Shown here in pieces: positions 3,640 through 61,083 of a stretch of 64,000 bases of DNA (position 1 is the stretch's first letter; every line of letters begins with the position of its first letter). This DNA comes from Aminobacter aganoensis (GTDB lineage: Bacteria; Pseudomonadota; Alphaproteobacteria; Rhizobiales; Rhizobiaceae). Location: NCBI RefSeq assembly GCF_014206975.1, contig NZ_JACHOU010000006.1, positions 124,001 through 188,000 on the forward strand. The letters are read 5' to 3'. The notes beneath the pieces were generated by a model. It did no database searches and was not told the DNA's origin. It saw only the letters and a list, made by a program, of their open reading frames with translations. Made by a program: the position numbers and the translations under genes.

Positions 3640-3995
3640 CGGTATCCCGCGGTGGACAAAGACATGACCGCTATTTGATGGAACCAGCCTGTGGAGACCC
3701 TGGATCCATAAATGCGCTTCACGCGGCGGTGAACCTGAGCCAGCCCGGCTTCGGTTCGCTTTGTCTGCCTTGGCTTGGAAATGGGAAGACCCGTTCCGCA
3801 CTGCCGGCAATGAAGGTGTGCCTCTTCAGTAACCCCGGCTTTTGGACAGCCGGAAGAGAACCAGAAAGGCCCGCACCGTCGTTGCTTCAAGGTGTCCTCG
3901 ATTTCGCGGTTGGCCGCCAAACCGACTGGAGGGGTTAGCTCCAGTTACCTTACCGATTTCCTCGCCATTCGAGGGATCGGCGGACACCCACAGGC
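3640..3995 (-). ncRNA. speF leader: speF-type structured leader RNA of ornithine decarboxylase
   Basis: The roughly 550-base gap before the decarboxylase has no convincing gene but many stems in minus-strand RNA. These are ACTGGAG/CTCCAGT (3924-3944), CGGTT/AACCG (3907-3924), CCTCG/CGAGG (3960-3974), GGTGTCC/GGACACC (3890-3896 with 3982-3988), CCGGCT/AGCCGG inside CTCTTC/GAAGAG (3822-3858), and GGAACCAG/CTGGATCC (3680-3707). Rfam describes a conserved speF RNA upstream of alphaproteobacterial ornithine decarboxylase genes, and position and architecture fit. Boundaries are approximate. The mechanism (attenuation or translational control by polyamine) is inference. Confidence 0.65.
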
Positions 3996-4121
3996 ACGTG
4001 CGACTTTGGGCAAGCCGGGATATATGCACCACGACCGTCACAATCAATTAAAATCGGACGGTGGGTTGAAAAAATTCAAACGTCGAACAATGCTGGAGAT
4101 ATCGTAAACAGGCTTCGAACG

Positions 4122-13339: not shown

Positions 13340-14089
13340 CTACCAGCGTGGGTTGACCTGCGGATTGGCCGTTGCCTCGACCGGCACCTTGACGCTCGAC
13401 ACCGTCGCCTCGACATGGTCGACCAATGCGTCCGGCAGCTTCAGCCGGCCGGCGAGCAGGTCGAGATAGCCGCGTTCGGCGCGCGTGTCGGGATCGATGG
13501 CAAGGCGCGAGGCCGTGTAGAGCTCGACCTTCTGGGCGTCGGTCTGGGCTGCGGCGACGATCGAATCGAGATCCAGCGGCGCATCGAGCTCGGCCATCAG
13601 GAACTGCTCCGCCTCGGAACCGATGCCGGACAGGCTGAGCTTGTCGCCGATCTTCTTGCGCTCGTCGTCGTCGATATGGCCGTCGGCCTTGGCGGCGGCG
13701 ATCATGGCGCGGATCAGGGTCAGCGCGAATTCAGTCTCGCCCTGGGGCGCCTGCGAGGGATGGAAGGAATTGTCGGCCGGCGGCGGCAAAAGCTGCGGCT
13801 CGGCTTTGGGGGCGGCGGCGGTCTGCTCGGGGGCATTGCCGGCCTTGTAGTTCTGGTAGGCCTTGTAGGCGAGGCCGCCGATGGCCGCGAGACCGCCGAC
13901 CTTCAGCGCCGTACCCGTGACCTGGCGGCCGGCACCGGTCCCGAGCAGCACCGCGACCAGCGCACCGGCAGCAAGCGGATTGTCCTTGGCCAGCTGCGTC
14001 GCCTGTCCGGCCTTGTCGCGCACGGTGGAGCCGGTGCCAGGGATCTTGGAGCCGAGGAGATCGTCGAGCAGCTTCTTGGGGTCGAACAT
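13340..14089 (-). CDS. DUF533 / TerB-like protein
   Basis: A 249-residue protein. The start at 14089 follows a GGAGGC Shine-Dalgarno. The N-terminal third has MFDPKKLLDDLLG and a hydrophobic Gly/Ala-rich segment (about residues 35-75), then a Pro/Ala-rich linker, then a helical TerB-like domain (IRAMIAAAKADGHIDDDERKKI) with an acidic DGHIDDDE stretch of the type that could bind divalent metal. DUF533 proteins are membrane-associated and of unknown role. It is monocistronic with its own terminators. Confidence 0.85.
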   Translation of the reverse strand: MFDPKKLLDDLLGSKIPGTGSTVRDKAGQATQLAKDNPLAAGALVAVLLGTGAGRQVTGTALKVGGLAAIGGLAYKAYQNYKAGNAPEQTAAAPKAEPQLLPPPADNSFHPSQAPQGETEFALTLIRAMIAAAKADGHIDDDERKKIGDKLSLSGIGSEAEQFLMAELDAPLDLDSIVAAAQTDAQKVELYTASRLAIDPDTRAERGYLDLLAGRLKLPDALVDHVEATVSSVKVPVEATANPQVNPRW

Positions 14090-38238: not shown

Positions 38239-38295
38239 CGCGTGTCCCCTGGCGAGCAAATCGGTTTCCCCCGCCTGACCATGCGGTGGACGATT

Positions 38296-38460
38296 TCTGC
38301 CGGGCCGGTCTTCTGGCTCGAGTTCAACCCGCCTCCGGCGCCTTCCCGTTCTACGAACAGTGGCTATTGCCGATGCGGTCCCTCTTACAGCGTTGGGCAC
38401 GCCACGGATTTGCACCGTGTTCCCGATTCTCCCGCATCGCTGCGGGCACCTGGCAGGAGA
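38296..38460 (-). promoter_or_regulatory. Cobalamin riboswitch controlling bluB
   Basis: On the minus strand the B12 box CGAGCCAGAAGACC reads from 38320 to 38307. Upstream of it are the other conserved elements: GGTGCC near 38450, GTGCAAATCCGTGGC near 38415-38401, and GCCACTG at 38365-38359, followed by GGGAAGGC near 38340. Their order matches adenosylcobalamin riboswitches. Excess B12 would repress bluB. Ends are approximate. Confidence 0.92.
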
Positions 38461-38537
38461 TGTCTATACGGCTGCGATGCCGATGGCCATCGCTCCGCGC
38501 GTCCAAAGCTGGCGCGCGGGCGACATTTCGACAGGGA

Positions 38538-52894: not shown

Positions 52895-53857
52895 ATGACG
52901 GACCTGTTCCACGAAATCCCCGGCAATCCGGTTCCCGAAAGGGCCACCTCCGGCGACTTTGTCGCCCATGACGGCAAGCGCCTGCGCTATGCGCTGTTTC
53001 CTGCGACATCCCATCCCTTCAAGGGCACGGTGATCCTGCTCAACGGCCGCAACGAATGCATCGAGAAGTACTTCGAGACCATTCGCGACCTGACCGTGCG
53101 CGGCCACGCCGTGGCCACCTTCGACTGGCGCGGCCAGGGCGGGTCCGAGCGGCTGTTGCGCGACGGCCATCGCGGCTACGTCAGGAGCTTCGACCATTAT
53201 GTCCGCGACCTCGAGGCGTTCTTCGAGCAGATCGTGCTGCCCGACTGCCGCGGTCCCTTCTTCCTGCTCGCCCATTCGAGCGGGGCGCTGATCGCGCTGC
53301 TGGCCGCGCCTTCGATGAGCAACCGGGTCCAGCGCATGGTGCTGGTGGCGCCGTTCCTCTCGGTCATCGGCGTACCGCTGTCGATGACATCGATCCGACG
53401 CCTGGGTACCCTCGCCTGCTGGCTGGGGCTCGGCCGGCTCTACGCCGCATGGGGGCCGCGCCCGCGCGAAGGCACGCCCTTCGCCGTCAACAAGCTGACC
53501 AGCGACGAGCGCCGCTATCGCCGCAACATCCTGCTCTACGAGACCTATCCAGAACTGTCGGTCGGGGGGCCGACCATTGCCTGGCTGCGCGCCGCGGCAC
53601 AGGCGTCCCAGACCGTGCGCGATCCGCAATTCATGGCAGCGCTCAAGGTGCCTATGCTGATCGTCAACGCCGGTGCCGACGAGGTGGTGTCGTCGCGCGA
53701 CGTCGAGCAGTTCGCCAGCCAGTGCCGCGTGGCTTCGCTGCTGACCATCGATGGCGCCCGCCACGAAATTCTGCAGGAAGCGGATATCTACCGCGAGCAA
53801 CTGCTCGCCGCCTTCTCCGCCTTCGTGCCGGGAACGCCGGCAACGGCCGACGCGTAA
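52895..53857 (+). CDS. Alpha/beta hydrolase, lysophospholipase-like
   Basis: A 320-residue cytosolic hydrolase. GTVILLNGRNECIEKYFETIRDL is the monoglyceride lipase/lysophospholipase signature, FDWRGQGGSER follows, and the nucleophile is in LLAHSSGALIALL (GxSxG-like, AHSSG). The acid and base are probably Asp in VNAGADEVVSS and His in IDGARHEIL. It could hydrolyse lysophospholipids or acylglycerols. It converges with hisN, only 4 bases apart. Confidence 0.88.
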   Translation: MTDLFHEIPGNPVPERATSGDFVAHDGKRLRYALFPATSHPFKGTVILLNGRNECIEKYFETIRDLTVRGHAVATFDWRGQGGSERLLRDGHRGYVRSFDHYVRDLEAFFEQIVLPDCRGPFFLLAHSSGALIALLAAPSMSNRVQRMVLVAPFLSVIGVPLSMTSIRRLGTLACWLGLGRLYAAWGPRPREGTPFAVNKLTSDERRYRRNILLYETYPELSVGGPTIAWLRAAAQASQTVRDPQFMAALKVPMLIVNAGADEVVSSRDVEQFASQCRVASLLTIDGARHEILQEADIYREQLLAAFSAFVPGTPATADA

Positions 53858-53861
53858 GGAG

Positions 53862-54635
53862 CTATCCCGCGAGAGCGGCCATCGCAGCCCTGTGCAGCTC
53901 CGGCGTCGCCGCCGCGATGACGTCGCCGCCATTCTCCGCCGGGCCGCCGTCGAACGTGGTGACGATGCCGCCGGCCTGCTCGATGATCGGAATCAGCGCG
54001 ACGATGTCGTAGGGCTTGAGGCCGGGATCGACGACGATGTCGACCTGCCCCGCCGCCACCATGGCGAAGGCGTAGCAGTCGGTGCCGTAGCGGGCGAGCT
54101 GCACCTTGCTCTCCAGATCGTCGTAGCGCTTGCGCATCTCGCCCTTGAACAAGGCCGGCGTCGTGGTGAACATCGTCGCGTCCGCCAGGCTGGTCGTCTT
54201 GCGCACCGAAAGCGTGCGCGGTCCGCCCGGCCCCTCGTAATGCGAGCCATCGCCGTCGGCGTAGAACAGCTCGCCGGTGAAGGGCTGCGACATCAGCCCG
54301 GCCACCGCGTCGCCATCGACGGTCAGCCCGACCAGCGTGCCCCAGACCGGCAGGCCGGAGATGAAGGCGCGCGTGCCGTCGATCGGATCGATCACCCAGA
54401 CATGGCTGTTGGAGGTGTTTTCGCTGCCATGCTCCTCGCCGAGGATGCCATGATCGGGGAATTCGGCGTTGATCAGCGCGCGGATGGCGCGCTCGGCCTC
54501 CTGGTCGGCCTCGGTGACGGGGTCGAACCCGCCGGCGAGCTTGTTGGCCACCGCCCCCTGGCGGCGGAAGCGCGGCAGTGTTTCGGCTGCGGCAGCCCGT
54601 GCGATCCGTCGCATGAATTCGGCGTCGACCATCAT
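53862..54635 (-). CDS. hisN: Histidinol-phosphatase, inositol monophosphatase type
   Basis: A 257-residue Mg2+-dependent phosphatase of the IMPase fold, which in many Rhizobiales performs the histidinol-phosphate dephosphorylation of histidine synthesis. The metal site is in ILGEEHGSE (Glu) and VWVIDPIDGTRAFISG (DPIDGT), with GLKPYDIVALIPIIEQAGG at the C terminus. Inositol-1-phosphatase activity is an alternative. An AbcR-like sRNA lies just beyond its 5' end. Confidence 0.85.
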   Translation of the reverse strand: MMVDAEFMRRIARAAAAETLPRFRRQGAVANKLAGGFDPVTEADQEAERAIRALINAEFPDHGILGEEHGSENTSNSHVWVIDPIDGTRAFISGLPVWGTLVGLTVDGDAVAGLMSQPFTGELFYADGDGSHYEGPGGPRTLSVRKTTSLADATMFTTTPALFKGEMRKRYDDLESKVQLARYGTDCYAFAMVAAGQVDIVVDPGLKPYDIVALIPIIEQAGGIVTTFDGGPAENGGDVIAAATPELHRAAMAALAG

Positions 54636-54726
54636 TCACCCCATTCCTGACTGTTGCGTGGATGACACGCCGCGGCCCTCGTCGGCAATAACCACATCAA
54701 CCTGATTTAAAGAATCCCAAGGCGAC

Positions 54727-54754
54727 TTGACTTTTGTGCAGCGCACAATAATCT
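54727..54754 (+). promoter_or_regulatory. Promoter of the AbcR-like sRNA
   Basis: TTGACT at 54727-54732 and TAATCT at 54749-54754 are separated by 16 bases, a good housekeeping-sigma promoter. It sits upstream of the sRNA and fires away from hisN. Confidence 0.6.
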
Positions 54755-54759
54755 CGACT

Positions 54760-54839
54760 TCGGACAGGGTTTCCTGTCCATGCCCTCCTTGGGCGTTTCC
54801 TCCCTAGACTTCGACCGCTCTCCGGAGCGGTCTTTTTTT
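54760..54839 (+). ncRNA. abcR: AbcR/alpha-r15-like trans-acting small RNA
   Basis: An orphan plus-strand transcription unit of about 80 bases with promoter and terminator but no gene. It folds as three stems: GGACAGG/CCTGTCC (54762-54779), GCCC/GGGC (54782-54794) and a terminal GACCGCTC/GAGCGGTC stem (54813-54832) followed by seven T. Between stems two and three lies an open TTTCCTCCCTAGACTTC stretch, a likely anti-Shine-Dalgarno seed. This layout and the CTCCC motif match the AbcR (alpha-r15) family, Hfq-dependent repressors of ABC transporter mRNAs in rhizobia and Brucella. Identity is from memory. Confidence 0.68.
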
Positions 54840-54859
54840 AACCTGCTCGGCCTGCAGCG

Positions 54860-55750
54860 CTACTCCGCGGCCAGCGGCAGGTCGAGGAAATGATGATCCG
54901 GAACCGCCATCAGATCGGCGGAAAACCGCGCCAGATCGTCTGCCAGCGCATAAAATCCCGCCGATTTCTTAAACGTGCGCTCATCCATGTAGAGGCCGCG
55001 ATTGATCTCGATCTGCAGCGCATGAAGCTTGCGCGCCGGCCGGCCATAGTGCTCGGTGATGAAGCCCCCGGCATAGGGTTTATTGTGCGCCACGGTATAA
55101 CCCATCGCCGCCAGCAGCCCGATGGCGCGTTCGGAAAGCTCCGACGCGGCCGATGTGCCGAAACGGTCGCCGACGATGAAGTCCGGCCGCATGCCGCTGT
55201 CGCCGATGCGGACCGAGGCCGGCATCGAATGGCAGTCGACCAGCACCGCATAACCGAAGCGCGCATGGGTGCGCGTGACCAGCCGCTTCAGCGTCTCGTG
55301 GTAGGGTTTGTAGACGCATTCGATGCGGCCGACCGCCTCCGACAGCGGCAACCGGCCCGGATAGATGTCGAGCCCCTCGCCCACCAGCTTCGGCACGGTG
55401 CCGAGCCCGCCGGCGACACGGGCCGAGCGGACATTGGTGAAGGGCGGCACCGGCTCCGCGAACATCCTGGGGTCGAGTTCCCACGGCTCGCGGTTGACGT
55501 CGAGATAGGCGCGCGGAAAATGCGCCGTCAGCATCGGCGCGCCGAGGGCTACGGCAGCGCCGAACAGCTCGTCGACGTAGCAATCCTCGGAGCGGCGGAT
55601 GGAGGTCGAATCGAGCCGCGTCATGGCCAGGAAGCGTTCGGGATAGCACCGCCCGCTATGCGGCGAATTGAACACGAACGGCACGCGCTGCTCTGCGCTC
55701 GTCCGGACCTCGAACGGCGGCAGCACCGAGAAATCTTCGGCTGGCGTCAT
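54860..55750 (-). CDS. N-formylglutamate amidohydrolase family protein
   Basis: A 296-residue metalloenzyme of the HutG/N-formylglutamate deformylase family. Conserved features are FVFNSPHSGRCYPERF, HFPRAYLDVNREPWELDP, VLVDCHSMP (His ligand) and LHALQIEINRGLYMDE. In the histidine degradation pathway such enzymes yield glutamate and formate, but no hut genes are adjacent, so another N-acyl substrate is possible. ATG 55750 is preferred; GTG 55777 is in frame. It is divergent from cpdR, a common rhizobial arrangement. Confidence 0.87.
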   Translation of the reverse strand: MTPAEDFSVLPPFEVRTSAEQRVPFVFNSPHSGRCYPERFLAMTRLDSTSIRRSEDCYVDELFGAAVALGAPMLTAHFPRAYLDVNREPWELDPRMFAEPVPPFTNVRSARVAGGLGTVPKLVGEGLDIYPGRLPLSEAVGRIECVYKPYHETLKRLVTRTHARFGYAVLVDCHSMPASVRIGDSGMRPDFIVGDRFGTSAASELSERAIGLLAAMGYTVAHNKPYAGGFITEHYGRPARKLHALQIEINRGLYMDERTFKKSAGFYALADDLARFSADLMAVPDHHFLDLPLAAE

Positions 55751-55979
55751 CTTTGCTGACGGACCTGCGACATGCACTCACTCATCGCTCGAAGGTGCCA
55801 CCTGCGGCCGCTGGTGTCCAGCATTTCGAAATGTGGAAAAGCCGCCCCGATCGTGCCTTTGCGTCACCATGCCGGTTCGGCATTCACTTGATGTTTACCG
55901 TCCCGAACTCATATACAAGATGGTTAACGGAGCCCCTGCTGGGGGGCGGCTTCGACCGCTAATTTCGGACGGGAAACTG

Positions 55980-56342
55980 ATGGCACGCATTCTTCTGGCA
56001 GAAGACGACGACGATATGCGCCGCTTCCTGGTCAAGGCGCTGGAACGCGCCGGTTACCAGGTGAGCGACTTCGACAATGGCGCGAGCGCTTACGAGCGGC
56101 TGCGCGAGGAACCCTTTTCGCTGCTCCTGACCGACATCGTCATGCCGGAGATGGACGGCATCGAGCTGGCGCGCCGCGCCACCGAGATCGATCCCGATCT
56201 CAAGGTGATGTTCATCACCGGCTTTGCCGCGGTGGCGCTCAACCCTGATTCGAAGGCACCGCGCGACGCCAAGGTGCTGTCGAAACCCTTCCATCTGCGC
56301 GATCTCGTCAACGAGGTCGAGAAGATGCTGCACGCCGCCTGA
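55980..56342 (+). CDS. cpdR: Single-domain response regulator CpdR
   Basis: A 120-residue receiver-only protein. MARILLAEDDDDMRRFLVKAL, phospho-acceptor Asp in LLLTDIVMPEMDG and Lys in VLSKPFHLRDL are those of CpdR. In Caulobacter and Sinorhizobium, unphosphorylated CpdR directs ClpXP degradation of cell-cycle proteins and affects CtrA. No DNA-binding domain is present. ATG 55980 is the family start. A short GGTTAAC element lies upstream. Confidence 0.93.
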   Translation: MARILLAEDDDDMRRFLVKALERAGYQVSDFDNGASAYERLREEPFSLLLTDIVMPEMDGIELARRATEIDPDLKVMFITGFAAVALNPDSKAPRDAKVLSKPFHLRDLVNEVEKMLHAA

Positions 56343-60705: not shown

Positions 60706-60817
60706 TCCCTGACCAGCCGTGGCGGGATTGCGGCAACGCAGGCAGAAGCCGGCGCCGGGATGGCAACCGTTTCAACCGCGCTCCAGTGGTACACCCCGCC
60801 CACGGAACCTCACTTGG

Positions 60818-61045
60818 TCAGGCAGGTCTCCTGGCTCGCGGGTCGTTGCTTCATCGCCCGTCTTCCCGGCATCCATGCCAGTGACGTGGTGGGCAATGTG
60901 GCTATTCACCATTGGGGCATAAACTTTCCGAAAGCGGACACCGCTTTCCGAAAAACATGTCCCGACCGCTCACAGTTGCGGGGCAGCTTCGGCTTTGACC
61001 GAATTCCCTCTTAGCTCCCGCCCGGAGGCGGGAGAACCATAACCG
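60818..61045 (-). promoter_or_regulatory. Cobalamin riboswitch controlling the CbiX-ferredoxin gene
   Basis: On the minus strand the B12 box CGAGCCAGGAGACCTGCC reads from 60838 to 60821. Upstream are CCCCGCAACTGTGAG (60984-60970), GCCACATTG (60903-60895) and GGGAAGACGGG (near 60868), in the order of adenosylcobalamin riboswitches. A CTCCCGCC stem near 61013-61032 begins the element. It is followed by the CbiX gene after about 110 bases. Confidence 0.92.
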
Positions 61046-61083
61046 TGCGGCAAGCTATAGGCGCGCGCCGCCAAGTCAAGCGG

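Follow-up and report, generated by a model that had tools for sequence, protein, structure and literature searches.

A predicted sRNA gene beside hisN

The window, by which we mean the whole 64,000-nucleotide stretch of Aminobacter aganoensis DNA analysed here, contains a predicted MmgR (alpha-r8) sRNA gene of 77 nt on the plus strand (54763–54839; the 5′ end is inferred from stem 1 and the 3′ end from the T run). Its divergent neighbour is hisN, encoding histidinol-phosphatase on the minus strand (53862–54635, starting at 54635; TIGR02067, 320.5 bits, cut-off 275.15), and on its other side lies the 3′ end, at 54860, of a minus-strand gene of the N-formylglutamate amidohydrolase (FGase) family (54860–55777; PF05013, 251.4 bits), the usual neighbour of alpha-r8. 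The FGase-family gene scored 112.4 bits against the TIGR02017 HutG model, below the cut-off of 278.75. An earlier note on this DNA had placed an sRNA gene of about 80 bases between hisN and the amidohydrolase gene, in a stretch without any other gene. These claims were borne out: the covariance match had an E-value of 9.7e-12 for the window, the list of open reading frames of at least 60 aa was empty across 54706–54859 on both strands, and the predicted transcript length, from the inferred ends, is 77 nt.

A core promoter precedes the gene (54726–54754, + strand), with a −35 element, CTTGAC, at 54726–54731 and a weak −10 element, placed by eye at about 54748–54754, that is a poor match to TATAAT. 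It corresponds to the housekeeping-type promoter that the note had recognized; a strict sigma-70 scan of the E. coli type missed it. The minimum free energy (MFE) fold of the RNA contains two stem-loops, GACAGG-GTTT-CCTGTC (54763–54778, + strand) and ATGCCC-TCCTT-GGGCGT (54780–54796, + strand), and the stem of an intrinsic terminator, in which eight base pairs (54813–54832) are followed by TTTTTTT (54813–54839, + strand; fold and terminator scan). The three stems and the run of seven T had likewise been read correctly. The MFE is −35 kcal/mol, whereas shuffled sequences averaged −19.49 (z = −5.40), and none of 200 shuffles folded as well. Between stem 2 and the terminator lies UUUCCUCCCU (54796–54805, + strand), the alpha-r8 10-mer and anti-Shine–Dalgarno (anti-SD) seed. 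In the MFE fold, only the first U of this element is paired, as part of stem 2. The CCTCCC seed singled out earlier is part of this element, which in DNA reads TTTCCTCCCT and is the sole such 10-mer in the window on either strand (0.05 expected). Terminator-like sites in 53800–56000 were not above chance (1 found versus 1.5 expected); the whole gene is far beyond chance, though the terminator-like pattern alone is not.

Elsewhere in the window, ARAGORN identified a selenocysteine tRNA (anticodon tca; 13408–13495, + strand), which suggests that the genome encodes a selenoprotein. A speF leader (RF00518, 103.3 bits) directly adjoins an ar45 sRNA match (RF02347, 160.9 bits) at 3705–4011 on the minus strand, and two cobalamin riboswitches were found, also on the minus strand (38286–38468 and 60804–61057; 119.7 and 95.9 bits).

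The sRNA belongs to the MmgR rather than the AbcR family

An Rfam scan of the whole window matched RF00519 (suhB/MmgR, alpha-r8) at 54775–54847 with 67.4 bits, well over the gathering score of 41, and the match spanned the full model (positions 1–77 of 77). Among 150 scored of 387 first-look candidates in the same genome, the window locus was the one RF00519 match. The features characteristic of alpha-r8 are present as well: the single-stranded 10-nt UUUCCUCCCU follows a weak hairpin, a Rho-independent terminator ends the gene, and the typical placement beside an FGase gene is provided by the PF05013 gene at 54860–55777. In most species, according to an excerpt of PMC12559287, one alpha-r8 copy lies beside the FGase gene, and the 10-mer is the core of the family.

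The earlier note had assigned the gene to AbcR (alpha-r15), a family of sRNAs repressing ABC transporter mRNAs, and had named beforehand a covariance search for alpha-r15 as the test that could refute this. The CCUCCC anti-SD seed, the three stems and the strong terminator do fit AbcR, as does the longest mRNA match that we noticed by eye, 10 contiguous pairs with the presumed ribosome-binding site of a gene for an oligopeptide ABC transporter ATPase. In a permissive covariance scan of 54600–54950, which listed nine families, ar15 gave no match up to an E-value of 10, and by the named test the assignment fails. The excerpt of PMC8844928 describes AbcR with two 8-nt anti-SD motifs, CUCCUCCC and UUCCCCUC. 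Neither occurs within 54763–54839, and both (as aSD1 and aSD2, respectively) are present in the single ar15 match of this genome (contig C5, 174521–174636; 49.1 bits, gathering score 40). The 77 nt between the inferred ends also fall short of the approximately 114–121 nt of AbcR/alpha-r15, and the hisN/FGase setting is that of alpha-r8. Because RF00519 matches, ar15 is absent and the AbcR motifs occur only in the C5 copy, the original observation was right and the family name wrong; we attach practically no credence to the AbcR reading. The suggestion that a partner AbcR copy might be found from the position near cpdR and tRNA-Val falls with it, as the window RNA is neither AbcR nor its partner and the ar15 match of the genome lies on C5. 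The proximity of cpdR is real, but it belongs to the alpha-r8 locus, given that hisN, the FGase gene and cpdR are all present within about 1.5 kb in 30 of 30 family loci.

The remaining families in the permissive scan of 54600–54950 were all sub-threshold: SorY (28.3 bits, gathering score 111), anti-hemB (22.5 bits, gathering score 49.5), Betaproteobacteria toxic sRNA (21.4 bits, gathering score 50) and five weaker ones. We take these matches to reflect chance or a common terminator shape.

On sequence grounds, the gene is thus very probably MmgR (alpha-r8), an sRNA with the general mode of an anti-SD regulator transcribed under a conserved dyad. This corrects the family assignment and adds one clear MmgR gene to the genome; the biology of the family was largely established already.

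Locus, sequence and structure are conserved in related genomes

Among 151 genomes drawn from the same family, including that of A. aganoensis, RF00519 was detected at E ≤ 0.001 in 123 and over the cut-off in 112. Of 14 control genomes, two had matches at an E-value of 0.001: Caulobacter, a known host of the family, and Thermus, an unexpected one. One match was over the cut-off; the Thermus match means that weak RF00519 matches can be false. We aligned 30 loci, comprising our own and 29 of the best-scoring others, so that conservation in this set is overstated by the way it was chosen. In the alignment, hisN and the FGase gene were present at all 30 loci, and both the core GGGCGTTTCCTCCCTAGACTT and the 10-mer UUUCCUCCCU were invariant (30/30 each). 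Among 119 named loci listed with the exact core, the FGase gene was found in 73 and hisN in 64 within the fetched stretch. The FGase and HisN proteins were 92–95% identical to those of a genome of the same genus (L016), 82–84% identical to those of a family member outside the genus (L021) and approximately 82–85% identical to those at named Mesorhizobium loci.

The three-stem structure was retained across the alignment: 91.3% of cells were paired, as against 86.6% for shuffles and no more than 54.5% after the partners had been slid. Forty cells were changed on both sides, versus 12.6 in shuffles. Relatedness can inflate both of these differences, and the number of pairs with both-side changes (7) was not above that in shuffles, which had a mean of 5.5 and attained 7 in 104 of 500 cases. 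In stem 1, 78.3% of cells were paired across the 30 sequences and five of six pairs had both-side changes; in the terminator stem, two of eight pairs did. Stem 2 yields no covariation evidence because five of its six pairs never vary. When the loci were folded singly, separate stems 1 and 2 formed in 29 of 30, with one (L007) folding differently, and at least 90% of the 10-mer was unpaired in 25 of the 30. In other family members, alpha-r8 copies were observed in tandem, with a spacing of about 200 nt (G046:C1:771568–772061, G029:C1448:185006–185306 and G075:C1:712528–712819).

A PhaR-type dyad links the mmgR and phasin gene promoters

A perfect dyad, TTGTGCAGCGCACAA, occupies the spacer between the −35 and −10 elements (54734–54748) and is a putative operator of the PhaR/AniA type. 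The published PhaR palindrome, WNWDDNYGCRNYGCRNHHWNW (excerpt of PMC12542648), is matched at 54731–54751 with one mismatch, at the outermost W. Across the whole window, the published degenerate motif gave five matches with at most one mismatch versus 6.16 expected, which is not significant; what argues for an operator is the strict dyad, together with its conservation. Across the 30 aligned loci, the TTGA of the −35 element is invariant and the ATA after the dyad is at least 90% conserved. A dyad matching at 10 or more of 13 positions was present before mmgR in 27 of these 30 best-scoring loci (reversed control, 0 of 30; shuffles, 0.8%), at a nearly fixed position 59–63 nt before the core; it was missing in the other three (L023–L025). 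In the named set, where the core lay too near an end to be usable in 3 of the 119 loci, the dyad accompanied 48 of 129 cores in the remaining 116 loci among the matches listed (reversed control, 0; shuffles, 0.9%), and distances were more varied.

The strict dyad, TTGTGCANNGCACAA, occurs perfectly at only three places in the 5.76-Mb genome: in the mmgR promoter, in the promoter of a phasin gene, where it again lies between promoter elements (TTGACA, dyad, TATCT), and before an unannotated ORF. With up to two mismatches, 44 and 40 sites were found on the two strands, compared with 15 and 7 for the reversed pattern; among them, one precedes another phasin gene (C13) and one lies approximately 120 nt ahead of the PF07879 domain encoded by phaR. 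When the dyad was counted on the strand of the phasin match, all ten same-genus genomes searched had it intact (13/13) ahead of their best-scoring phasin gene, 90 nt upstream of the phasin domain. The second phasin type is without a dyad, with at most 8 of 13 positions matching in nine of nine fetched same-genus loci.

The unannotated ORF behind the third perfect dyad (L033, 1066–1482, − strand; contig C1 of the same genome) encodes at most 138 aa, has no Pfam or NCBIfam match and looks phasin-like by eye only; it could be a new granule protein. A one-mismatch PhaR-type dyad was also seen on contig C2 (L035, C2:84417), just before an ORF that by eye resembles a glucan-exporter ABC protein.

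In Sinorhizobium meliloti, the mmgR site is CAATTGTGCACCGCAGCATTA, which the dyad found here resembles, His6-PhaR shifts the mmgR promoter in electrophoretic mobility shift assays (EMSA), and these shifts are abolished when the palindromes are changed or excluded (excerpt of PMC12542648). Control of S. meliloti mmgR is described as relying on the dyad between −35 and −10, and the same review ties both NtrC and AniA control to it (excerpt of PMC8401924). That double control would also suit a reading in which the dyad serves a different regulator, such as NtrC or another dyad-binding protein, and not PhaR. We regard this as highly improbable, given that the best-scoring phasin gene is preceded by the dyad in ten of ten same-genus genomes, that a two-mismatch copy lies approximately 120 nt upstream of the phaR PF07879 domain, and that PhaR itself binds the S. 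meliloti site. A PhaR-type operator, common to mmgR and the phasin gene and closely placed in both, leads to the prediction that PhaR binds both promoters and that polyhydroxybutyrate (PHB) status moves the two in concert.

A possible PHB-responsive circuit

The genome carries hfq, phaR, phaC and three Pfam phasins (the phasin search model, PF09361, also matched in Methanosarcina among the 14 control genomes). With these components, mmgR would be transcribed from its housekeeping promoter, with the −35/−10 spacer as the operator for the PHB-sensing repressor PhaR/AniA. PHB-free PhaR on the dyad would keep RNA polymerase off mmgR, a step that the sequence here and the S. meliloti EMSA support; when PHB granules form, PhaR would be drawn away and mmgR presumably released, together with the phasin gene that has the same promoter layout. 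By analogy with other family members, MmgR with Hfq would then pair through its exposed UUUCCUCCCU with purine-rich ribosome-binding sites and lower translation, so braking the build-up of granules and perhaps further functions in metabolism or uptake; the expected effect on phasins and PHB is extrapolated from S. meliloti. There, MmgR is a 77-nt, Hfq-dependent RNA that is repressed by AniA (PhaR) and activated by NtrC, and deletion of the mmgR core raises PHB and phasin protein with phasin mRNA unchanged (excerpt of PMC8401924). Another review words the phasin effect oppositely, stating that MmgR 'preserves' phasin synthesis (excerpt of PMC7143759). Hfq association is reported for the alpha-r8 members described in excerpts of PMC12559287 and PMC8401924.

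For direct targets, we searched the genome for TCTAGGGAGGAAA with up to two mismatches. The 40 sites found did not exceed the 37 of the reversed control, which is itself SD-like and hence weak, and we make no sponge or target claim. Of the 40 sites, we examined the 30 for which loci were available: one is the sRNA's own antisense, and at 18 of the other 29 an ORF of 80 aa or more starts just downstream; several of these ORFs are probably spurious. Two sites have a single mismatch: one (L197) is without such an ORF and the other (L198) is at the oligopeptide ABC transporter ATPase gene (PF00005, PF08352) whose 10 contiguous pairs are described above. A 98% identical counterpart of this gene was found in only one of nine other same-genus genomes searched, and accordingly it is not a conserved target. 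RNAduplex gave −15.4, −14.8 and −14.9 kcal/mol for the three phasin upstream stretches, values that come without a background control. For the best-scoring phasin gene (L045), RNAduplex showed no convincing pairing site in the leader; the best duplex fell upstream of the promoter, a position that speaks against direct pairing at this gene. For another phasin gene (L047), the duplex covers the presumed ribosome-binding site and start.

These results bear on what MmgR chiefly does. An alternative that keeps the same identity and mode as the best explanation holds that the RNA is MmgR by descent and that it mainly controls central metabolism and the uptake of nutrients, not PHB, in the manner of Caulobacter SisA, which uses the same 10-mer on a 5′UTR and represses a large regulon (excerpt of PMC12559287). 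The near-complementary ribosome-binding site at the ABC ATPase gene would fit such a role, and some near-complementary genes start, judged by eye from their first residues, like secreted binding proteins. However, fragments of 60–61 residues from five candidate ORFs had no Pfam match, complementary sites showed no excess (40 versus 37 for the SD-like reversed pattern), the ATPase gene has its close counterpart in one of nine same-genus genomes, and the PhaR-type operator ties MmgR to PHB. We consider a chief role in uptake possible but doubtful, and lean towards PHB control as the main role of MmgR here. MmgR may resemble AbcR in part of its action, with transporter mRNAs among those it regulates as an anti-SD sRNA, although it is not an AbcR member.

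A broader, speculative form of the proposal, which we think unlikely as a whole, is a circuit conserved in this branch of the Rhizobiaceae and made up of the PhaR operator in the mmgR promoter and the similar promoter layout of the best-scoring phasin gene. PHB formation would release a granule protein along with the sRNA limiting it, which would make the circuit an incoherent feed-forward brake; the sRNA would also pair with mRNAs of transporters and metabolism and so couple the state of the granules to nutrient uptake. Excerpts of PMC12559287 and PMC7143759 give no direct mRNA target as known for S. meliloti MmgR, and another species, one whose operator is perfect, could be useful in this respect.

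Comparison with known systems

AbcR1 and AbcR2 (alpha-r15, RF02345) resemble the window RNA as trans-acting sRNAs of the anti-SD type; they differ in belonging to another covariance family, in their length of 114–121 nt and in the motifs CUCCUCCC and UUCCCCUC (excerpt of PMC8844928), which the window RNA is missing. SisA–D of Caulobacter crescentus are alpha-r8 members that share the 10-mer anti-SD core and the terminator; the SisA 10-mer is a pairing seed that pairs with a 5′UTR, and sisA adjoins an FGase gene, as here. Unlike the single match here, there are four copies in C. crescentus, with unrelated promoters and a sponge, CrfA (all from the excerpt of PMC12559287). No CrfA-type sponge was found in this genome by the complementary-site search, which gave no excess over its weak control.

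S. meliloti MmgR (SmelC689, alpha-r8, RF00519) is described in excerpted sources with the same 77 nt, three stem-loops, 10-mer, terminator and dyad between −35 and −10, and as a sole copy, in line with the one match here among the 150 of 387 candidates scored. Its site CAATTGTGCACCGCAGCATTA (excerpt of PMC12542648) differs from the perfect dyad TTGTGCAGCGCACAA found here. By its family listing, the Mesorhizobium huakuii 7653R candidate MH_s24 (RF00519; excerpt of PMC5596092) is likewise a suhB-type sRNA candidate in a rhizobial genome.
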